Assembly (NCBI RefSeq): GCF_964199755.1
Contig: NC_133900.1
Span: forward strand, 75,128,727-75,192,726
From: Larus michahellis
Taxonomy: Eukaryota; Chordata; Aves; Charadriiformes; Laridae
Reading direction: 5' to 3'
DNA length: 64,000 nucleotides
Below are positions 15,001 to 33,000 of the stretch, piece after piece (within the stretch, counting starts at the first letter, position 1; each line of letters begins with the position of its first letter). The position numbers and the translations under genes are program-made. The notes under the pieces were generated by a model, which did no database searches, was not told the origin of the DNA, and saw only the letters and a list, made by a program, of their open reading frames with translations.

Positions 15001-18000
15001 CAAGATGAACCCTTGGTATGAACTGGCATGACTCTTTTATTTACCAGCAAGCTTGAATGCTGTGGGACAGAACAGCATGCAGTGTGCTCTTGTATCTGTT
15101 TTCAGCCTGTTTGCTGAAAAAATCTCAAGCATATTATATAGTTTACTGATGTTAGGAACTTAATAGATATCTCTGAAGCGCAGTGTTCGTCTACAACTGG
15201 GAAAACATTTATTTGATTTACCCTGGATATGTAACTGAGGATGGTAAGAAGCTAGTCTTGTGTATCTTTACGTTCTTTCCTGGGTGACAAGATAGGAGTA
15301 GAACCAGTGTGTATGAGCTACGTATAGAGGAGAAGGATATTAGATAGTGGAAACTATTTTATGCTTATTTAGGAAATGTCATGTTTCAGAAACAGAGCTT
15401 AGTATTAAAGATACTTCCCTATTTTGATCCAGATGTTTCAGATACTTGTAGCATTTCAGCAGGTGAGCCTCCTAAATTTACTGTTAATGCGGCTAAGTGC
15501 TGAGGTCTGGGAAAAGGAGAACTTTCTTCTTTCGAAGATTTCTAGAACGGATAGTTTTGTTTGGGTTGTTTTTCCACTGTAAAGGTAAGTGACTGCTTTC
15601 TGTCTAAGCAATGACTTTTTCTTTCGTAGAAGGTGGCAGAGGCTGAGGATGACAGCGATAGTGATAGTGATGATGATGAAGATGATGTTCAAGTCACCAT
15701 AGGGGATATTAAAACAGGAGCTCCACAGTATAGGTAAGTTATTTGCAAAGATTAACTGGGGGAACTTTAAAGATTATATTAATTATTAATTCAGGCTCTT
15801 TAATACTTGCCAATGTCAAAATGTATGCATAGTTAGTCTCAATTTAGGTTTTTTTCAGCTCTTTAACAATGTTTTTAATGATATAGTGGCTTGAAAACAA
15901 AAAAGTGAAATGAATTCAGTGAGTTGTCTTAAAAGAAGAGCTGTTGTATGAGTTAAATTTTGTTTTCAGATTTTGAGAAGTACTTTTATTAAATTTGTAA
16001 AGTAGAGAGTTGGTTTTTATTATGGAATGGCTATGCAACATAGTATTTTTAGGGTTGTTATTGTGATGGTGACATTTTTGTTGCAAATGATAGAGTGGTA
16101 AGCACAGAGAACCTTAGAAACATTTGTCCTTGGTCCTGTTTGTAGTGGATACAGTTCTAATTAGACCTGTATAGTTGCAGTTCCTCTTGATGTTCTCAAA
16201 TATGATTTTAATGCACTTCAGGATGGAGTGGCCAGCCTCTGGACATAATTTCTCAAGATCATGGTTTAGGCGCTTGTACCATACAAGAAATTTTTTGCTA
16301 CTATTATTGCCCCGTATTGCTGCTTCTCTTGATAAAAGGGCTTGGTTTTTCACTGAACACTCTTGAGCAGTGTTAATTTTATCCAAAATTATGAAATATT
16401 ATTTTTCATTATATGGAAGTTTTCTGAGGGAAGTGGTTTACTTGTTTATCTTGGCAATCCTAAAGTTTTTATGCTTATTAAAACCAGAGTTACTAGGGCG
16501 TCATTTCTTAATAGAATTATATGAGGTCTGCAAGTAGGTCTGATTCATGTATGTTATTGTGTTCTTAACTTTAGAATGCAGGTGATCTACTAATTTTTTG
16601 AAACACAGTATTTTAAAACTTTCAATATGTCTTATCCCAAACTAACTGCAAATCAATGTAATATAAAAAATAGTAATTCTTCCAGTTCTTTATTTGTCTG
16701 CTTTCAGTAACTTGTGGTGTAGGCAGTGACCTCAAATTTTGTGAGACTAAAGCAAAACTGGATTTATATTCTCAGTGGATTTGCTGGTGCTCTTGAATAC
16801 AGAAAACAACAAGCAGATGATCCTAAATGTAATTAGAGTGGAAAGTTTTATGTAGAAATGGTTGTTTTCTGAAAAACCTTTTTTTCTGGGCAAATTGGAC
16901 AGAAGGTTCATGTAAGGGCAGTAATGTAAAACAAACTAAACATTGCTGTTTGTTTTAACTTTAGTATAGCAGGTTCCTTTTATAGGATTAAAAGATTTTT
17001 CATATAGTAGTTAACTGCTGTTTAAAAAAAAAAAAGATTTGTTTGAAAAAGTCATGCACAAATACAGCATGGCTGACGAGAAAGTTAAACGTTTTGCATG
17101 AGTTTTGTACTGTTGTAGCACTTGAAGGAAAACTAAAACTGCATGGAAGTGGGACTGTAAACTGTACGCTGCCTTCTAATTATATGTTAATCTCATTATT
17201 TTTATGGTTTGATACAACCTGTGAGGACAGGCTACATTGCATGCAAATGGTAGTGAAAGCTAGCTCTTAACGATCCAAGTGAACAATACTGTAATTCCTA
17301 GGGTAGTTAGATCAGTTCAGTATCCAGATTTCTGAGTGCATTTTTATGAAGAAAGCTCTCAAGTATTTTAGAAAGTGAAATGTTACATACTTTTCTGTTG
17401 GTCACAAAGATAGTACATTGAAACAGACAGCCTTTCAATCATTGTAGAGAAATGCTTGTATTTTCCACTTCTGTACAGATTAAATGGAATAATTATGAAA
17501 AGGAAAAAGGATCTGTCTAAACCCTTTCTTTTTTATTATTATTTCTTTTGTTTTTATGCTAATCCCCAGAGTGTCATCTGTATCCCTAAATGAACTGCGT
17601 TTTTCCTTTCTCTCTTCTCCTGGTTCTGTCCATTCTTGTTTCTATCAAGGTCTTTATCCTTTCAACTCAGGAAGAGTGACTGGGACTTGCTTCACAACTG
17701 TTTATTAGTTGGAGAAGTTGCTACTGAGCATAGAAAGGTACACTCTCTTCCTCCTAGGCTGATCTCTTTACTTTTACAGTGTTACCAGCTTGGAAAGCTA
17801 GAGATTCAGGATGACGATTGAGCCTGGGTCCAGTTTGTTTCTGGATCTAGCTAACTCTTGTTTTGTGTTTTCTTCTGTTTTAAGAGTTTTCTCTGTCTAA
17901 TTCAGTTTTGTTAATTTCTTTAAGTTATGGAGCGGCACCTGTGAATCTCAATATTAAGACAGGAGGACGAGCTTATGGATCTTCTGGTAAGAAAACTTGC

Positions 18001-21000
18001 ACAGTAATATTAGTAAAAATGTAAAAAAAAATGTTTGATTGTTTTGGATTAAGGAAGTCATTTTCGTTTCCAAAACTTCTTGATAAATTTAAATCTGACT
18101 TTTTATATCTATTTTAAGTGTGTTACAACTGTTAAAACTCTACTTGGTAGAGACAGAAGGCTCTAACTTTCTAATTTTTCTTCACAGGTGCTGCAAAAAT
18201 TAAAGGGGTGGATCTAGATGCACCAGGGAGTATTAATGGTGTGCCACTTCTGGAAGTAGATTTAGATTCTTTTGAAGATAAACCTTGGAGAAAGCCAGGT
18301 AATGCTCTGGTTTATGTTAACTGATATGTAGGGATTCAGTAGGTTATTTTAATCATAATTGCCGTTTACTGCATGTTGATGTTTTCTACCATATAGCTAG
18401 AAGATACTGTACAATATAACTTGGAAAAATCAGCTAAGTTATTTGTTGCCTTTGTGCTGTGTGGGTGTGCCATGTTTCTTACTAGACGTTCCACACGTGT
18501 CAGTAAAAAGAGACTGTAGGACGTGCTTTATTTTTTTTTTTAAATACATGTATATCCTGAACTCTCCTTGGAAATCTCCATTTCTGTGGAGATTATAGCT
18601 ATTGGTCTGTGCCGTAGGACCGAAGAATAAAGCAGAAGGGAAAGCAGTTCTAGCAGGTTTGAGCATAAAAAATGGTGAAACGTAGCTGCTTGGGCTTCTT
18701 TGTGTTCACGCATAAACGTCCTTAAGTTTTGAAGAAGAAGCTGGTAGCACGTGGGCTTTCCATATGTCTCCTGTGTGTTTTGTCTGGTTGGCTCAAGTGA
18801 TTTGGCCAGACTTATCTAATACCAGCATTGTTGGGGTTTTTTTAGTGGCAGTACGTCTTGCTGCTCTGTATAGTTTTTTCTAGTGTTTGTATATTGCTTT
18901 GGCAATGCAAATACTGTCTATAAAATGGAAAAAAGAAGCCTTTGATAATATTCTGGTGTTTGAACTGTTAGCTATTTGAGTTACGTCTGGTCTGTCTCTT
19001 ACAATAAAAATACTTCATGGCATCAAATGGAATTAGGAGTCGAAATGAGGAATCAAATACAGAACAAGCAAAAGTCAGTGGTTCTTCACTGAGCATACAG
19101 CAAACTTGTAGATCTTAGATTTATCCTATTGTAAAGATATGGGGATTATAATATCCTATGATATTCTGTAAGTATCTACTTTTGATCCCTGAGACAGGAT
19201 GCTAGGCAAAATACTCTTTCTGACTAAAGAATAGTTTTAAATAAAAACTTATATAAAGTTTTTATAGCCTTAGCTATGAATACTGTATGTTTACTGATGT
19301 AAGACTGTATTGTACATCTCAGTAGTATGTTTTTAGATCAATACCTAATCTGTTTTGATGTTATAAATAGAGGTGTATGTATGTTCAGTGAAGAAAAGAA
19401 AAGATGAGCTTTGTAGTGTCATAAAACCCTGTGCTTTTCTATTTAAAGGGGCTGATCTCTCTGATTATTTCAACTATGGGTTCAACGAAGATACCTGGAA
19501 AGCTTACTGTGAAAAACAAAAGAGAATACGAATGGGTCTTGAAATTTTACCAGTTACCTCAACCACAAATAAAATTACGGTAATTAGTACAACTTTTGTG
19601 GTATTCTACAGGCTTTTTCGCCTGTAAAGCTGTTTGTGTGTCATAAGCTTGTTTTGCTCAGTTCAGTGCCCGTGTTAGAGTTTGCACCTGACTCCCCACC
19701 TTGAGCCTAGAGCGTTTCTGTGTTGCTTCCCTGGCAATTTGTGTGGATAGTGTGACAGACTAGCTACAGCTAGATTGCGTCTGTACCATTATGCAGATTG
19801 TGGCCCAGGTCTAAAGAGTTTTATGGTATCTTAATGGGCAATGTGTTATTTAACTTAGGCTGAAGACAAGTCTATGGAAGTAAGACCCAGTGCAGAGATT
19901 CTCGATGGCAGATACCATCTTTTTAAGGTGAATTTTAGTAAACTTTTGTTGGTTGCTGTCATTTTTGTTGAGTATTGATTCCCATGCCACCACAGACTGA
20001 TTGAAGAACAACTGAAATGGACGTAGCCATTATTTCAAACCCTCATCTTACATCAGTGACATTCTGCGTATGTCACAAAATGCTGATTAAAAAGTGGTAT
20101 TTTATTCGTCACCCTTCTGCAAGCATGTGAGTTAATGGCCTGGTGAACTAACCAATTTCTCAGTGAAATTAATTTTTCTTTATGTGATGGTTTATTTTTA
20201 GTTGTAGTGCATTTGTTTGTGCAGATTAAAGAATTTGTGCAGATGTGCTGGGGAAGCTTTTGTACGTTATGGCATGTTTATTTTTCCTGCGGCCTTTTAG
20301 CTCTTACTGTGTTTTGTAACACCCTTGGCAACTCTGAGATTTGAAAATCAATCTTCCATATTTTTCTGTTGTCCTTTTGGAATTACATGGCAATAAATCA
20401 AGTTATATATAATATTTTTCTGTTTGGAAATTCTGATTTTCAGAGAACAGAAAAATCTGTGTGACAGGATTTATCTTAAGGATTGAACTTTTTTTCAACT
20501 TCTCATTTTCTCATTTATTCTTTTGTTAGACACTAAAGTTGAAGTTAGATTACAAGGGATATTTATTTTGGTTTTTTGCAATATGCAGTCATTTTTGTTC
20601 TTGAACTGTCATTAAACTGACTTGGAACTATTTGTTGTTTTCTTCTGTATGTTCCTGTGACAGAAGTGTCAATTGCAGACAGATATTTTGTTTCCTCTCA
20701 TACGCTACTTGAGGGTATCCAGTCATTTTGACTTTATCTTAGCAAGAACAGATCAGAAGCTCCCTGGGGTTTTTTGCCTTCCTCAGTTATCATTATAATA
20801 GTGTTATGGAATGGCGGAAATGTTGGGAAATGGGAGTTACGATTTGTAACTGACTACACTTCAAATTTCTCTGAAGTGTTGTCCCGAAGGAAGAAGGATA
20901 AGTATTCCAAACCAAAGCATCCCCTATTTCTAGCTCAGTATTGACTCTCTGGGGGTGCAGTGATCAAACAGTACAGGTAATAATTGTGTTGTAAGAGTCT

Positions 21001-24000
21001 GAAGTAACAGTTTGTCATGTGTTTTACAGAGAGGTTATATGTAATTATTAAATAATTTCATTAACTTTTTTCCACTCTTCTGAAATACTCTCATGTCTCA
21101 TGTAATTTACATGATATGTTTGGATTAATCTTCTGTAAATGGCAAGATTTTGCCTCCTGCATTTTCCAGTTACTCATTAATTAATATAAGTCTTACTTTT
21201 CAGAGTTTTAAAAGCTTAAACCAAACTTGTCAGGTTGCCTTTTTTTTTTTTTTCCCCCATATTTCTGGATATTAAAGTTTAATTCCATTTTTAATGGATC
21301 TTAACTATTTGTGTACATTTCCGGGGGGTTGGGAAAGAGGTGCCTGCGTTTAGAAGTGAGATTCTGCAAAAGCTTATTAGTTCACTTGCCTACAAGAAGC
21401 TGAGAGATCACAGCCTATGTGATGTTATACCATGAGGGAAGTAGCTATTGCGAGTGCTGTAGCCGTGTGGTTGGTACAGTGGGAGTGTCGTTAAAAACTG
21501 AATCAGTACCGGTTTGTCTTCAATGCTAACCAACGTAGGGTTTTCTTTCATGTATAATGCGCTGCTGAAGTCAAATGATACTTGAAGTACTTGCACCAAA
21601 GGTCTGGTATAGCTTTAATAATTTGTCTCTGGAATTTTGCAGTACTTCGGAAACAGCAGTATGTTTTTGAAGTATTCAGTCTGAACTAATGAAAAATCTT
21701 TTAAAGTTTGCATAACCCAGAGTGTGAGGTGACCCCTTGCTATGACTCAGAAATTAAGTGGTTACTAGATCTCGTGGTCAGTAAGGCAGACGAAGAATCC
21801 ACTCAGTTTCTTGTCTTGTGGTTTGGTTTTGGGTAGCAGACTTGTTAGGTATCTCTGTCGTTAGGATTATGAAGATTTTTATTATTTTAATAAGTTTGCG
21901 TCTCTTAAAAATTAAGATGTTATTTTGTTCATACAGGAAATTCTACAAGAAAATCAGTCTGGTCTGTTAATGTCCAAATCAAATGCTTGGAAAATAAATA
22001 TTAAAAATGTCTAGTCTTCTGTTAATAATTTGTTCTCTGACATAATGCTTCTTTATATTAAATACAATACTTAAGTAATATATCCTTATAAAATACAGAA
22101 TCTTACTAGCTGTGCAAAGGTGACAGTTTTTAAAATACCTTATTAAAGTTACTTTCTTTTTGTGTTGCCTATGTGCTTTGCTGAGTGTTGGGGCTACTAC
22201 GCTTCTGAGGTTAAACTAATGATGGAACATTATTTTGAAGGTACAGCAGGGCAGAACTGGAAATTTGGAGAAAGAGTTGGCAGTGCAGTCGACCAAAGCT
22301 GATTTCACATCTCCTCCTGCCTTATTCAAATCAGGAATTCCAACAAACAGGTCAGTTAGACAGTTGTAAGTCAAGACCAAAAAACTTTTCATTCTGCTAC
22401 CTTTATGTATTTGAAGTTCATGATTTCTCTAGGAAAAAAGGAAAATATGTTTTTGTAACAGGTAGACATGAGGGGAAGAGTGATCCTAATCACTTTTGGC
22501 CTTCAGTTACCATTACACATGAATGCTGGCTGTTTGGGAAAGAGAAAGTAGAAAGAAAGGGGAGAAAAAGCAACAGGACCAAATAACAAGGCAGCTATAA
22601 AAATCCAGGTGTTGATCACACCGTGGTTTTTGTGTAGAATTAGACTGGCCAACAAAATGTTTTGATCTAGCTCCTTTATGCGTATTAGCTAACATGTCTT
22701 CTCAGTTTAACAAGATGGAGTCAGACAACTATGACTTCCACTGCAAGAATTCCCGGAACCCGATCTCTTTCCTGCAAGGTGGCTTTAGCTTCTCCGTATT
22801 TTAATATTTTAGTATACTTTCTTTGAAATGCGAGAAATTATTTCCTAACTAGGGTTTCTTCCTTTCCTTCTTGCAGCCCCATGCTTTATTAAATTCTGTC
22901 CTTTATATCTCAGCTATTGCTGTTTGCTGTCTGGCACTTGGCTTAGGATGAATCCATGCTTCTGCTTCACTTAGTTATCAAGTGATCCTGTTTTGGAATT
23001 TTGGTTCTGTGCAAATTAAAAGCCACTGTATTATAAATGATGGTAAGGGAAGTAGAGCAGGTTGTACGCTTTAGTCATCAACAGTTAAAGATTGGCATCT
23101 ATGACTTGTCTTTAGCATTGCATCCATAAGTACCTTGACTAATTCAGAGGCACTCATGTTTAATTATTCCATCCTTTAAGAGTCAGTTTAACACCCAAAT
23201 ATATTTCGCTTGGGTGGAAAAAACAATCTTGTGTGATGCTCTTGCCTGCATTTTTCTTTCACTCCTAGAATATTCCTCCTGGTAGCCTAAATTCTTCTAT
23301 GAGCTTTCAGGTTATACTGCAGGTTTTAGTAGGTTTTAGTTGTTGGGTTTTTTTTTATCTTTGTTTGTCTAAGAAGTAGTAAAAGTCTTCCAAACTTTTT
23401 ACCAACCCTGTAATATTTTATATTTTTTTTAATTCTCTGAATTGTTTCTGATGTGTGATATTCTTGTAACAGAGTTCTCAAAATTGAATGTACGGTTGAC
23501 AGGGTAAGGATTCCAAATTTATATCTAGTACAGGTTTTGTTACAGGATTTCAATTCTTTATGCATCTCACTGTTGGACAGAGAATGTCTAAAATACTTTA
23601 GAAAGTAGTTAATGACCAGGATATTAAAATGTAGTGAAGCTTAAAGTTGTAGAAAAAATAAATGCATTGTGTAAATTCCGTGATTCTGTGAAATTTGCAT
23701 TTGTTGTGAGAAAACTTAATACAATTAGGTGATATATGTGCATGGTATAGGCTTCATTGGTGAAATCTTTGCTGTATGCTCTAGCTAGGATAAATCTATT
23801 TAATCACAGATGTCTTTATACCGTATTTTTATGTGGTACTTTTTTGTTTTCTGCCTGAAGTTGGCAATCCCAAGTTTAAGTAACCATCTTTTAAAGGTTC
23901 AAGGTTAGTATATTGGTTGTTAAACAGAGCTTTCATGAGAAAATTAAGATGTGTCTGTTTTCTCCGGGAACTAAGTTTACCTTAGCAAAGGTTGGAAAAC

Positions 24001-27000
24001 CCGTATATCTTTAAGAATGAGAAGCCAGTAAGCGGAGTTGGTCTGTTGTGTAGATAAAGAGGAAACAAACCCCTAGGTTTCCAGCCGTATAACCTCTGCA
24101 TTCCAGTGTTTCGAATAGGTTGTTTTATATACGTTTAGGGTGAATACAGTGTTGTTACAATGATGGCAAAACTGACTTCTTTCCATATTCAATATCCACT
24201 CCTTTCGATACATTTGCTTAAAATAAATTCTTATGTAAAGAAAAAGGTATTTCTACCAAGTGGTCAGAAGAGATTTTGAAAGAAAATTGTATGCTTAGAA
24301 GTGCGAGAGTAGCTCAGTGAATGAACGAGTCTTAACTGTATGGATTATGTATACTTCTACTTGAATGACTTCTTCAGAACACAGCTACTGTTTTCTGTAT
24401 ATAAAAACCTGCATTACTAATTTCTTTATAAACAGACAGTGTTCTATGAGATTGGACCTTTTTTTTTCTTTAATTAGAGACTTAATTTTAGGTAGGCAGA
24501 AATTTTTCATCAGTCCAGTTCTTTGATAATTTAAAATAATTGCCTTTATGCAATGAGGCATTTGTAATAGCTTTGTTGTGAAATTGCTGGAAGTATCTCT
24601 CACGTAGCAGGAAAACTTCTCTCAGCTTCTGATGTATTGTAGTTAATATATTTGGTGAAAGAGAGGAAAAATGGTGCAACTGGGTGTAGCAGCATTGGTG
24701 TGGGGATTGGTAAGGAGCTGGGCATGATGACAAGAAAAACTCAAAGAGGAAAGAAGATAGAGACGCAAGAAAAGAAAGACTTAGGCAATTTATCTCAGCA
24801 GAAGCAGTACCTCTTCTCAGTCACAGACAACCACTGCCTCCAGAAAAGCCAGTTAAGGCATCAGGAAGTGGCAGGAACAATATAGGAGGGACAAATCACC
24901 CAAATTAAGGTAAGGGAGGGGGAAATCAGGACATCCTAATCAGATCCTAATTTAACACTTTTTAATTCCCCATTTACCAGTCAGAGCTTCAACGTTGCTT
25001 TGTGGACAATTTTACATGTAGATTTTACAGCACATATTTCTCTTCAATGGGAAGTATGAGGACAGATAGTGAGTTTTGCTTTTTTTTATTTGTTTGTAAG
25101 CAAACATTAAAATAATTCTATGCCTGCTGTTTTTACCTTTTTAGTTTGAGTAAAGTAGGTATTTGCAGATGATTGCAGTTGAAATTCTCAAAAAAAAATA
25201 ATAAATCTCTGAGGTCTAGCAAGGCTGTTGCGCATTACCAATATGTAGGTTGTAGTTTACAAAAAAGAAACAGAATTATTGCTCACCAGCAAATAAGTTA
25301 CTACTTCACTAGAATTGCATCCTAAATGTTTAATTCAAAGAAAAATTCAGTGCTTGTTCATACAATGTGTCTGTGTGAGAAATTTTGCTTGAGTTTGTAA
25401 ACAATGACTGTCTTAATCATAGCGGAGCTATTAGTTGTTTAGAAATGACACCTGAACCTCTTGTCTGGACTTTGTGATGTTTAGGTCTGTTGAGGAGGAG
25501 TTAGAACATAATGGAAATGGTTTAGTAAATGCACATCATATACAAACAATATGGTATAAAACAGAACGTTTGTTCTCTAGAGGTAGTTAATTACAGGTTC
25601 ATTGTATGCATAGTCACAATTAAGGTAAAAACCTGAAGGAGTCTCTTTTGGGTGCAGTGTTTTCTGCAACATGGAGAGGATTTGGCATATTTCAAACCTG
25701 TCCTAACCAGCCAGGTCATAGAGAAATTTTACTGGTTTTTAGACCAGTGTTTTTCCTTATGTCATTTTTCAAGGACTCTGAGATAGTATTGCTTCAAAAT
25801 TGCTTTCCCTGCTTTAAAGCAGGGAAATAAGCAGAAGTTTCATTTACAAGCTGGATGCAAAAACTGGTATTTTCCCGTTCTGGTAATATCTAGAACAGCT
25901 CTCTGTCACAAAACTTAGTTCTGTCAGAAGCTCTTAGCTTTTTAATCTCCATTTATGCTTTTTGTGTTATTATGGAAGAGTATGTTACATTTAAATGAAT
26001 TTTGCTTTCAGGGAAATTAGCCTGTCAGTGCGATGGGCTATTTATCAGCTTTGTCTGTGCTTGGGTCTTTCTGTAAACAGAATTTTTATAGAAAATGGAT
26101 TTGTGATATGTCATTACTGTGAAAAAAATGCAGGTTTCTCTTGTTTCATGAGCTAGCCTTGTGAGACTAAACAATGAAAACCAATATTATTTTTGAAAAA
26201 TGTCTATTTCATATATCAATGATTTCTGTATTACATTTGTTTGCTTCTTAATTATATCAGTCAGTGGCAAGTGAGCTCAGCAAAGTTGAGGCTATCCTCA
26301 AGAGGAGGAAAATAAAGCATAAAACACGTAAGCAAGACAAGCAGGAACACAAGAACGTATTAAGTACCATTTTTAAAGTATGCTATAATTCTTAGACTAG
26401 ACTATAAGTCTAGTGAATAAGTGTGGCATCCAGTAGTTAGTCTGTTTCTGAATTTGGAAAAGTGCGTGTGGGGCAGTTCCAAAAAAGTGGTTCATTATTT
26501 GTGGTGGGGATAAGTGATTTCTGAAGCTATGACTCTGGAAAATAATTGGGTTTGTCTTTTTTTTTTTTTCTTTTTTTTTTCCTTTTCCCTTCTGCTTTTT
26601 CCCCCCCTTTCTCTTTGCTCTGTGGAACCTAAATAAATTCATCTTGCCAAATGAGATTGAGATATTATTCTGAATTAAATCTCCATGGAGGGTGGTGTTC
26701 CTAGTGCAAATAGCTCGTAAATAACGACTCTCTAATTAGAGTGAAATCACTGACTGAGTTGATGGAATGTTCCTCTCAAGCTACACTTTGTATGAACTCT
26801 GCTGTGGGTTCATGTGCATCCCACACGCATGGATTGCCTTTTTATGTTCGGGTGTATCCATTGGGAATGCATCTGTATCCCAGGTGCCCCAATCACGTAA
26901 AGGACAAACCAAACCCTTTCTTTTCTTTGTATACAGCACTGAGACAGAAACCTGGTAATGCTGGCTTAACATTTTACAGCTAAGATAGGTAATGGCTGGG

Positions 27001-30000
27001 GGGTCTTCAGATTTACCCATGTGCCAACTTGCTATGACTTAATCAAGATCCGAGGCTTCAGATTTGTCCCTTTTGCAAAACTGCTGAACTGTGAAATTCT
27101 GGACACTTCGGATGCCTCTTATGCCTCTGTGAAGATTATGTTTTTGACAGTGGTGTCATCTGCTGCTCCATTTGCAACTGAACGTATGCTTTCTCTTGTT
27201 CAATTTCAAGCTCTTAGTGGAGTACTTAATGAAATCATTATTGCAGTCTTGGAAATATAGGATTTGTCATGTTCAAGATATGATGGCAAATTACTTAACT
27301 TATCCATCATTACAAAAATTAAATCTCTTGGCAGCTGTTGGGAAGAACAATGGGCATACCGCTATAAAGCATTATTTACAAAATAATTATAAAGCATCAG
27401 CTCAGTGAGAATGAGTGAGCATAGGTGTACTCTTCAGCCTCCAGAAAAAATTCAGTGAAAGCCCTGTTCATATCAGTAAGGCTGATACCAACTGGTAGTC
27501 TAGGTTTGCTTCCTTCGATAATGCAGTGTTGTATTCAGGCTGCTTCCCAAGCCCAAATTAGTATTATTGTAGTATAGTTGTTGCACATATTACTTTCATG
27601 CCCAGTACTCTTGCATTGGTGTCCATTGCCTGTTTTCAGTGCTGGTTCCAAGAGCTGCTGGCAGTGTGCAAGCAGTGCAAGAGAGGAAGAGTCTTAATTT
27701 GAAATATACAGCTCCCAGGTGGAAGCCCTGTAAAACAGTGGAGTGAGCCAAGCAGGGAGTCACCTGAGGAGGGACTTCTTGCCGTAGAAGAGTCATCTAT
27801 CATACACAAGGACTAAAGCTGGGTAAAATGAGTTTTCTAGGTTACAGTTTTAGATAATTAAGAGAAGATACCAGCAACGGAGGAAAACCAGTGTCTTAGA
27901 ACTCTGAAACCAAATGAGCTGTCAGAGTGAAGACTGATGCAAACTTTTGTTGTTTTACAAAAATTCAGTTGTCTTTTTTTTTTTTTTCCCCTTTGAAGTG
28001 AAACAGTTGGTTTAGCAATTGTTTTATAATGCCTATGTTTCCAATTTAGTAGCTGAAGGCAAAATAATGATAATCCAAAGAGTGGCAGTGCTGGAATACT
28101 ATGCAAGACCAATGGGAGGATCAGAAAGCAGGTGTTGATTATTTCAGGATTTAGACTGAAACAACCTTGACTTTTAGGATGGGGTGTTAGAAGATAAGAG
28201 AATTTCTTAAACTTGTGTTATCCTTGGAAAAGCTGCTGGTTTAGTTTGCAGATGTGTTCTTAGACTTATACCATCGGACTTTATTATTTTTTTCCTACAA
28301 ACTGTTGTGGTTCATGAGCTTGCTTTAAAATCCAGGAGGAAGCTCTAAACCCAGGTATTGAAAAGCTCAGAGGACAGGCGTTTGGATCATCCTCAGTATG
28401 CAGTCTGCCAAGGAACTTTAGATTATCTCTGGGAGATCTAATTGATCCTCTAGTGTCTGCTGTGTCTTTCTCAGCTGCATTGGAATCTAGGCATTTGAAC
28501 AATTGGGGTCAGAGCTATCAGTCCAGCAGAACTTGGAGCCTGTAATCCCACCTTCCAGCTGTTCTCCCTGCTATTTCTATTAATGTGGTTAGTAGTCCAC
28601 CAAAGAGAAAAAATGCAAGAACTTATCTTCTAAAACTAGTGTTTTTTTTCTTTCTATGCATTTATTTTATGTAATTTCTTGAAAGATTTTTTCCCATTTT
28701 TTTTTTTAACTTTGTTATGTATCATGCTATTGGTAAATATTGTCAGTTTTCTGTACGGTGGTTTCCCTTATAGATGTGACACAGAGGTACCTTTGTGTCT
28801 CTCATCCATTAGCAATGTAATTTTGTGCCTCATTTTCTAATGGAGTTGACCTAAGTGAATCCTGCTTTTTAACCTTTTTTAGAAATTAACCGTGGGCTGC
28901 AAAGCAGGTAGGTTTGGTTCTGTCTGCATAAGAATAATAGAGCTATAAATTCTCTATAAAGCTAGGTTTCTGGATTTCATTTGGTTTGGGGCTGCAAACA
29001 GGAAAGTTCACTGTACTTTAGTTTCTTCCACTCTTCAAAATAGTGAAGAGACCCTTTGTCACAGGTACCAGGTTTTAGTTACGGTAGATGACATTCAGAT
29101 CCTTTTCATGCTATTTTCTGGTGTGGCGCCTGGAGTCCTTCTTTACTGTCAGTATATTCCCGTGTGATTGATTTATTGAAGATTTTGAGAGACTGAGTAT
29201 GCTTTAAATTTTAGTGTTTGTATCCAATGGAATGCCATTGTGTCTTTACCCTCAGTGTAGCGTTTTTAATCTGCTTTGAAAGGTTAAAAATAAAGTTGCA
29301 GTTGACAGCTGTGTGGCCATGAGGTCAGATGATTTTGGGGGCTTAAAGATATCTCTCTTAACAGACTATGCAAATATGTACATGGGAATTAAGAATTTTA
29401 TAGTAGGAACTGTGTTAAGTCTAACAGGCATAAGCTTAATAGATTGACTCATTTGGAAACTGAAATGAGATACATTTGCATTTGAAATTCACACATTGAC
29501 TCCAGTGTGAACTGGAATAACTCGTTCATAGTGAACTGAAATCACTGAAACATTAAATACTAGATTGCATTTTTCTAAATAAGATGCACTTGTTCAAATT
29601 AATCATTAATAATTTATAATCATACCCATTGAGAAAGAGATCTTGGAATTGTTGTTGCTGCATCCCAAAATGTTATTTCAATTTCCAGTGTTAGCCAAAA
29701 TAAGAAAATTGAATGGTAGTCATCATTAGCAGTGGGGAACAAACCGAGGAAAGTCATTATGGTAGTACATAAAGCCGTGATGCGTTGAGAGCTGAATATT
29801 ATCTGTGGTTCTGTTTATGTCAGGCAAGAAAAGATATAGTAGAGGTAGGAAGGTTCCACAAAAAGATGAAATAAATAATGAAAGTTATAGACTTGCTTCT
29901 GCATGAGGAGAGATGTGGACTAGTTCAGCTTGGGAAAGAGACGACTGAGAAAGAGATACAGCAGAGGTACCACGAATATTACACTGCCAGAGAGCCGGGG

Positions 30001-33000
30001 ATTTTTTTTATTTTTAACACAAGTACTGTAGGGCACCAAATACAATTGTCAGGCAAAAAAATAGCTGAAACAGGTCTCATTACTGGAAATCAAAAGTAAA
30101 AGTGTGTTCAAAAGAGATAGTGCAAATGCAAGTTAATCAGGAGCTATTAAAGAGAGTTACAAGGGAAGTCCTTCAATTTTTTGATTGGCAGAAACTGTGA
30201 GGGAAAGAATGTGTATATGCACATCACTTTTCTTGTCATTTTTCTCTAAAAGTCCATTACTAACTACTTCTAAGGTGAGTGTTCTTAATTTACATTATAT
30301 TCCGTTGTTGCCTGTCGGTGGTGTAAGGGAGACTGAGGTGGGTCTGGTGCTGCTGTTGCCAGTTTCTTTAAAGAAGGTGAACTTAGTGCTTAGCTGTGCA
30401 AACGCTTTAGAGGTGTTTGAGAGAGAGACATTTTGCATATGGAAAACCGAGGAGCAGAAGTATGAACGGCTGCTCTAAGATGCCTTTAAGTTCCGTGCAA
30501 GGTTTAATTGAAGACTCGGTGTCTGCTAGTTTCATATACTTACTGTTTGATATTAAGACTGTGTATTCCAAGATGAGAGAGAGAGCAGCTGCTCTTGTTC
30601 AATATGTGCTGCGATATTGACAGTATGCATGGTAGGGTTGGCTTATGTTTATGTCTGCCTCCTAATTTACCTTTGTTTGATCTTCCATGGAATCCTTCAA
30701 TATGGTTTCTTGCCGTTTAGAAATTATTTCTAATGATTAGTTTATAACTATTTTACTTAAGATTTTTGTAGGTGTTCTGTTTAATATATTTTTTCTTCCT
30801 GAGTTTTTTGTGATATCACCATAGTTCTTGAGTTGGTCTTTTTTCTTTTATCAGTAGCAGAAGTGTAGATTTATTATCTTGTAGGGGATGGAAGGAGAAT
30901 GCGGAGAGTCAGCCTTTGTCCTACAGGAGTCTTTATTGCTGCATTGTTTAGTTTGACACACTTGCATAGTCCAGCAAATTTATCATATTGAATGTTCTTC
31001 AGAAATGGTCTTTTATGTTCTATACAGGAGAAGGAACTTTTGGCATTTAGAATTAGAGAAGTCCATAAGACTTTCTTCTCTCTCTTTTCTTTTTCTTTTT
31101 TTTTTTTTTTCCCTCCTTTTCTAATTCTGCTTGTTGATTCTGGTTTGTGCTGTGTTGCAGGCGATTATCTGGCACAATAGATGTGATTGGACAGACCATC
31201 ACTATCAGCAGGGTTGAAGGACGACGGCGTGCTAATGAAAACAGCAACATACAGGTTTTATACTGTAGATTTGCACACTATCTTTGACTAGAAGACACTT
31301 TTGCTTTCCCCATAGCTTGTGATTAAAGCATTTCAGTGTGTATGAATGAGTAAAACAAAAGTAGCTTTAAGTTCAGGAAGAAAGTTGTGGCATTTAATTG
31401 AAATAGATTAAGATGAAATATTTGGTATATTTCAAAAGATAAATGTTTTGGTATACTTCTTACTGAAAGGAAATGAGCAATATTGCAGGCTTACAATCCA
31501 GGAGACAGCATTGGCTTTGCTAGATCTGCATGGGATAGCATTTTGTTTACTAAGTGAAAAAGATAAATATTTAAACTGACTGTCCATTTCTCCCCTATTC
31601 CTGCCAGACGCTAATGCTGCAAGTGAAAGCCGCTTCGTATGCAGTTTGAGAAATGCATACGTCTTTTAAAGTCTTTTAAAAACAAGTTGTGGAGGAATAA
31701 ATAGTAGATAGTATTATTTTTTTCCAAATGATATTGTATTATTTTACCATAAATTGTAGGATTAGTCTTTATGGGCTTGGATTATCTTAAGAAATCAACT
31801 AAATGCTTTAAGATTAAATACACTTTTTCTCTCCTGATTTACCTGTGGAGAAGAGTCAAGGTTGCTTGGTGCCCTAGCTGCATTTCCATGCCAACTTACG
31901 TTAAGGTTAAACCATGAAAATAATGATGGATTGTAGTGCTAATATTGAAAACGCTGCCATGTGTTTTTCAGCTGATCTCACAGTGTTTAAGTAACTTAAA
32001 GTCTTGGGGGTTTTCATGCTTTTCATTTTGATTTTTAAAATATTTTCCTTTATACATAAAGTGGTGTTTTGAGCCATATTCAGATGGCTTATATTCCCTC
32101 TCAGATCTCACGTTTGGTGTTCCCTATTGGCTGCTCCTACGCCTTCAGAGGTACTTGGCAAGTATGGGACACTGAACGTAGGGATGCAGGTAGAGCTTAA
32201 ACCATCTGAATATGGCTCTTCAGGTGCATAAGTAATACTTCCCTGTTGTAGTAACTGGAAAGAGAGGAAACCTATCTTCTACCCTTATGACATAGCAATT
32301 GTAACTATAGTTTGATATTTTACAGGTTCTTTCAGAACGATCTAATCCTGAAGTAGACAATTTTACCAAGCCACCTCCATTTTTCCCTCCAGGAGCTCCA
32401 CCTACCCACCTTCCACCACCTCCTTTCCTCCCACCCCCTCCAACTGTCAGTACTGCTCCACCTCTGATTCCCCCACCAGGTAAATATCCACATAGGATGT
32501 GAAAATGAGAGATGCGTCATCATCAGGTGCTAGATGATAATGAATTAAAGACAACGCATTCCATGCACATTTGGCTATATGTGTAGAATTGCAGAATTTT
32601 GTGTTCTACTCTTTTCTTAAATCTATCTGCAAGACAGAAACAGAAACTTTTGTCTCTACTTTCTCACTAAGCGTAATTCCAAGTAGTAACTAATCACCTA
32701 AAGACTAAGTGTTGGATCTTGTGTCCTTGAAAATGTTTGAAGTGAGAAGCTGTTTTCTGTAATTAAACTACTGTTAACGCTAATGAGAGATACACGTTAA
32801 CAAATCGTCCTACAAACTTTTGAACTATGAAGTATGGCATACCATGAATTTGTTTCGGAAGTTGGATTCTCTGATGTCTAAGGTCAAAGCAGCAGCAGAA
32901 GCTTTAATTCCCCTTTCCCCTCACAGTATGTATGAATTCCCAAAAGTCTGGTAGGAATCACCTTTGTGCTGTATCCTCTCTTTTAGTCAGAGGTCTTATT

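Follow-up and report, generated by a model that had tools for sequence, protein, structure and literature searches.

An in-frame stop codon in a cassette exon of gull FIP1L1: probable decay of an unproductive exon or, less likely, a poison exon

Intron 9 of the FIP1L1 gene of the gull Larus michahellis contains a 111-nt segment, apparently homologous to a coding cassette exon, that an in-frame TAA interrupts. The reading favoured here, and considered rather probable, is that of a formerly coding cassette exon, unproductive if included, which drifts and decays without a selected regulatory role. In this line, the coding role of the exon would have been lost in the lineage with the gain of a nonsense codon, TCA changing to TAA, and the main FIP1L1 product would be the one from which the exon is skipped. 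Some transcripts probably still include it, because its splice sites remain, and nonsense-mediated decay (NMD) would remove such messages, which would be unproductive. Drift of a dispensable alternative exon, with no selected role, would be the simplest account of this history. The decaying unproductive exon was judged the most likely reading and a selected poison exon the second; the DNA alone fits decay and a useful off-switch alike. What the analysis newly brings is a second copy of the exon in the same genome, which has TCA where FIP1L1 has TAA and which lacks splice dinucleotides.

The cassette segment within the FIP1L1 gene

The window, that is, the whole 64-kb stretch of DNA analysed, carries FIP1L1 on its + strand, the gene being identified by a profile match to the Fip1 motif (PF05182, 60 bits) at positions 19445-19531, + strand (G000:C9:75148171-75148257). 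The joined gene model starts at exon 4, with exons 1-3 placed roughly and left out, and without the segment it reads as a single open frame of 482 codons plus stop that runs from exon 4 (model position 15632) through to the stop in exon 16. The segment itself (24799-24909, + strand) lies inside intron 9 (22351-31160), downstream of the 110-nt exon 9, which ends in AG (22241-22350, + strand), and upstream of exon 10 (31161-31254, + strand), whose first base completes the codon. Preceded by CAG and ending in AAG ahead of the donor GTAAGG (24910-24915, + strand), it measures 37 codons, enters and leaves in phase 2, and its inclusion in the joined model adds 37 codons with one TAA (24854-24856, + strand). 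The sequence and the joined gene model thus confirm all the structural elements of the original prediction, namely coordinates, splice dinucleotides, phase, 111-nt length and in-frame TAA. A protein search displays two TAA in the cassette match; the match overruns the exon, and the second of them lies within the donor GTAAGG.

A tblastn search of the 64-kb window was made with a provisional human FIP1L1 protein sequence, its exon borders being provisional as well; it found the segment 65.8% identical (E = 1.5e-9) and correctly placed after exon 9 and before exon 10. Its mammalian counterpart is presumably an optional exon, present in the canonical isoform. As expected of an orthologue of that exon, the gull segment shows the same position, a compatible phase, equal length and similar residues (the human side being provisional), but its reading frame is not open, owing to the TAA at 24854-24856. 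The homology to a mammalian FIP1L1 cassette exon that had been claimed is therefore supported by place, by the 37-codon length and by the identity to the provisional human protein, and a chance resemblance is ruled out by the E value of 1.5e-9 together with the rank of the donor, second among the 583 GTs of intron 9.

Wider searches returned no further relatives. Solved structures gave none, with three matches at E 1.3-1.6, and single scans of prokaryote contigs (422 pattern stretches) and viral contigs (69) with exons 10-11 as the query confirmed none; none of the 14 control genomes gave a match to the Fip1 motif. Over 22351-31160 the gathering score was not attained by any Rfam family, and the folding predicted for the RNA of 24700-24960 does not stand out (z -0.77). 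Elsewhere in the gull genome, a second FIP1L1-like gene with introns and its own Fip1 motif (PF05182, 60 bits) is located on the - strand at G000:C13:49005000-49014900 and just beyond. Three stretches of this gene are 69-72% identical to the protein of the window, and it is perhaps a retained ancient paralogue. Its matching intron of 1,967 nt contains no convincing cassette exon, the best candidate having E 0.059 and lying on the wrong strand.

A second copy of the exon and the origin of the stop

When the 1.4-Gb genome was searched with the segment, only the segment itself and one other place were returned at E <= 0.001, the latter on contig C10 (G000:C10:57911361-57911429, 83% identical, E 6.4e-9), and a reverse search with the C10 stretch gave the same two places only at the same threshold; such a search scores the best candidates only and may have missed weaker copies. 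On C10 the sequence is NSTLSGREVALPPKKANSGFRKWQEQWERADQPDL, which resembles the provisional human exon (45.7%, E 2.4e-5 with about 20 kb searched; E 0.009 with about 80 kb and composition adjustment). Aligned over the whole exon, the window and C10 sequences share 86 matches, against 18 mismatches and 20 columns with gaps, those at the ends included, and the C10 copy shows several indels, including a frame-shifted block. A check of its edges found no AG and no GT.

The copy (G000:C10:57911353-57911457) appears as a stray single exon, with no FIP1L1 neighbour exons or clear intron-flank homology found. Within 79,840 surrounding bases, partly N-masked, no other FIP1L1 sequence was detected at E <= 1e-3 (DNA) or 1e-2 (protein), and neither exon 9 nor exon 10 was found next to it, the score being reached by a fraction of 0.844-0.874 and 0.386-0.978, respectively, of 500 shuffles. 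An origin of the C10 copy as an ordinary retrocopy is therefore not supported, since it has neither exon 9 nor exon 10 beside it and nothing else of the window turned up at E <= 1e-3 in those partly masked bases. A DNA duplication that carried intron flanks along was likewise unsupported. In anchored comparisons of the C10 flanks with intron 9, the fraction of 500 shuffles reaching the score was 0.078-0.628 for the upstream flank and 0.15-0.326 for the downstream one. With 100, 200 and 400 nt of flank, in local tests of 1000, the score was reached upstream by 635, 171 and 190 shuffles and by 13, 8 and 106 random FIP1L1 windows, and downstream by 740, 778 and 541 shuffles and by 743, 714 and 324 random windows. 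A purine-rich stretch would give such a pattern in the upstream flank, where the signal arises against random windows and not against shuffles.

The codon of the C10 copy aligned to the TAA is TCA (Ser), the very codon that had been guessed as the state before the stop. The TAA is most simply taken as derived, because the provisional human exon and C10 both have Ser at this site, and a single C-to-A change, TCA to TAA, is its most likely origin. It seems improbable to us that the TAA reflects a polymorphism in the individual sequenced, or a mistake in the assembly, and that the exon still codes in the species: a single sequence underlies it and the TAA is one change away from the TCA of C10, but modern assemblies seldom contain such mistakes, and the window exon has four further replacements, at sites where the provisional human exon and C10 agree, that suggest a longer relaxation. 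Of the 16 sites of agreement between the provisional human exon and C10, 5 are changed in the window exon (N to S twice, S to stop, A to D, D to K), and C10 retains the N, S, A and D residues that the window exon has lost. Conversely, of the 22 sites of agreement between the provisional human exon and the window, 11 are changed in C10, or 4 of 15 outside the frame-shifted block; these counts are small and depend on the provisional human sequence. Compared with one another, 5/16 and 4/15 give no sign that coding constraint has been stronger in the exon of FIP1L1 than in the spliceless C10 copy, which suggests that constraint on the FIP1L1 exon may have been relaxed, rather than broken by one isolated change.

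Identity to the provisional human exon is also unequal on the two sides of the stop, 16/19 before it and 9/18 after it (Fisher p 0.038, post hoc). This excess of later changes was set aside as evidence, four of the later differences being common to C10 and therefore older than the split of the two copies.

Splice signals and fate of the included message

Damage to the splice sites or to the length, as expected of a relic, was not found in 24799-24909. According to scores derived from approximate consensus frequencies rather than a trained model, no other donor among the 13 scored for the gene model exceeds AAG|GTAAGG (7.26). The acceptor is weak: it ranks 99 among the 652 AGs in intron 9, and among 13 acceptors scored only that of exon 9 is lower, with the acceptor of exon 4 absent from the set as unscorable at the boundary used. 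The sites available to a poison exon would thus comprise a strong donor and a weak, tandem acceptor on this approximate consensus. The tandem CAGCAG (24796-24801, + strand) could move the exon start by 3 nt, from 24799 to 24802, and either start, if used, preserves both frame and TAA. An internal AG might also serve as acceptor and bypass the stop, with the exon starting at 24865 as a 45-nt in-frame coding form (24865-24909). Although this form is open through the gene model, its acceptor scores poorly (-2.58, 291 of 652 among the AGs of intron 9), and we regard it as the least probable of all the readings weighed.

A stop more than 50-55 nt upstream of the last exon junction directs a message to NMD. 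The TAA stands 53 nt ahead of the next junction, and in the gene model seven junctions lie downstream of it in total, so that it is well over that distance from the last one, as in a poison exon. Following the general rule, a message that included the segment is a predicted NMD substrate because of these seven junctions. They also speak against a form that escapes decay and yields a short FIP1 with the acidic part and the Fip1 motif but neither the proline-rich nor the Arg-rich part. The TAA follows the Fip1 motif and precedes the exons rich in proline and in RD/RE; this position would suit such a product, which we nevertheless consider very unlikely.

How much weight the undamaged splice signals can bear was estimated by a neutral simulation, a simple one with assumed rates and a donor threshold of 4, looser than the actual donor score of 7.26. 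Splice signals and length were kept in a fraction of 0.39-0.53 of the neutral runs at 5% divergence, 0.25-0.37 at about 8%, 0.10-0.22 at 12% and 0.02-0.07 at 20%, and another stop was gained in 0.27, 0.51 and 0.65 of them at 5, 12 and 20% divergence. No additional stop is seen in the window exon. The original prediction took the intact splice sites, and a similarity unbroken on both sides of the stop, as favouring a recent or selected change; signals and length are indeed kept, whereas as an argument this discriminates weakly, given neutral retention of 0.39-0.53 at 5% and 0.10-0.22 at 12% and the replacement of 5 of the 16 residues. On the other hand, if all the replacements came after full relaxation, at about 12% divergence or above, the rarity of retention together with the lack of a further stop keeps some constraint on splicing or a recent stop plausible. 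Altogether, two histories fit the pattern: a recent full release that followed relaxed coding, or a loss of coding with splicing kept by selection.

The second of these corresponds to a selected poison exon, whose inclusion would destroy the message and through which FIP1 or its regulators would tune FIP1L1 output by NMD. We consider it an unlikely reading, if a serious one. It draws on the splice dinucleotides, exact length and frame that are kept around a TAA with seven junctions downstream, on the absence of those dinucleotides from the C10 copy, and on a published exon-inclusion screen in which FIP1L1 activated an upstream tethering reporter (PMC11389820). Against it stand the weak acceptor, the simulation, in which neutral retention of the signals is not improbable, and a literature search for FIP1L1 with a poison exon, which led to the poison exon of PRPF39 instead. 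Still more tentative is the proposal that one C-to-A change made the coding cassette a selected poison exon tuning FIP1, with the C10 copy as the pre-stop state that would order the switch in time. The decaying unproductive exon, for its part, is favoured by a frame that is open without the exon, by the TCA of C10 and the Ser of the provisional human exon, by the residue changes, by the weak acceptor, by neutral retention that is common up to about 8% divergence, and by the lack of notable RNA folding or of an Rfam family in the region. What argues against decay is the top-scoring donor of 13 and the length of 37 codons, equal to that of the provisional human exon, set beside a C10 copy with indels and without splice dinucleotides.

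Optional FIP1L1 exons and comparison with known systems

FIP1 participates in poly(A) site choice. If a coding option of its gene became an off-switch, the gull exon would be a natural experiment on the origin of poison exons from coding ones; with decay only, it amounts to a small difference in gene structure and a caution to annotators against forcing a coding exon or repairing the frame. In PMC5963917, alternative exons 9 and 13 are named for mouse Fip1l1, exon 13 responds to loss of SRSF3, and SRSF3 autoregulation is mentioned; any correspondence of mouse exon 9 to the gull cassette is hypothetical. PMC2640376 describes a patient FIP1L1-PDGFRA isoform without FIP1L1 exon 7a, which shows that optional FIP1L1 exons exist in human, though not this cassette. 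No title or abstract on a FIP1L1 poison exon was found in the literature searched, mostly non-subscription, and a search with the exon peptide found no paper.

Both poison exons and inactivated alternative exons are already known kinds of system, the former in SR proteins such as SRSF3 and in other RNA-processing factors. The gull exon shares with the mammalian FIP1L1 cassette its place between exons 9 and 10, its 37 codons and 65.8% identity (provisional human sequence), and differs from it in the TAA and in replacements at residues common to the provisional human exon and C10. With SR-protein poison exons it has in common a frame-compatible cassette, a stop far ahead of the last junction and a gene for RNA processing; these are characterized by inclusion, NMD, autoregulation and conserved exons and flanks, whereas the gull exon is known from DNA. 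As in lineage-specific inactivated alternative exons, a stop has been gained, the residues are apparently relaxed and the frame is open without the exon, but unlike the relics of such exons, the gull exon has its splice dinucleotides and its length undamaged.
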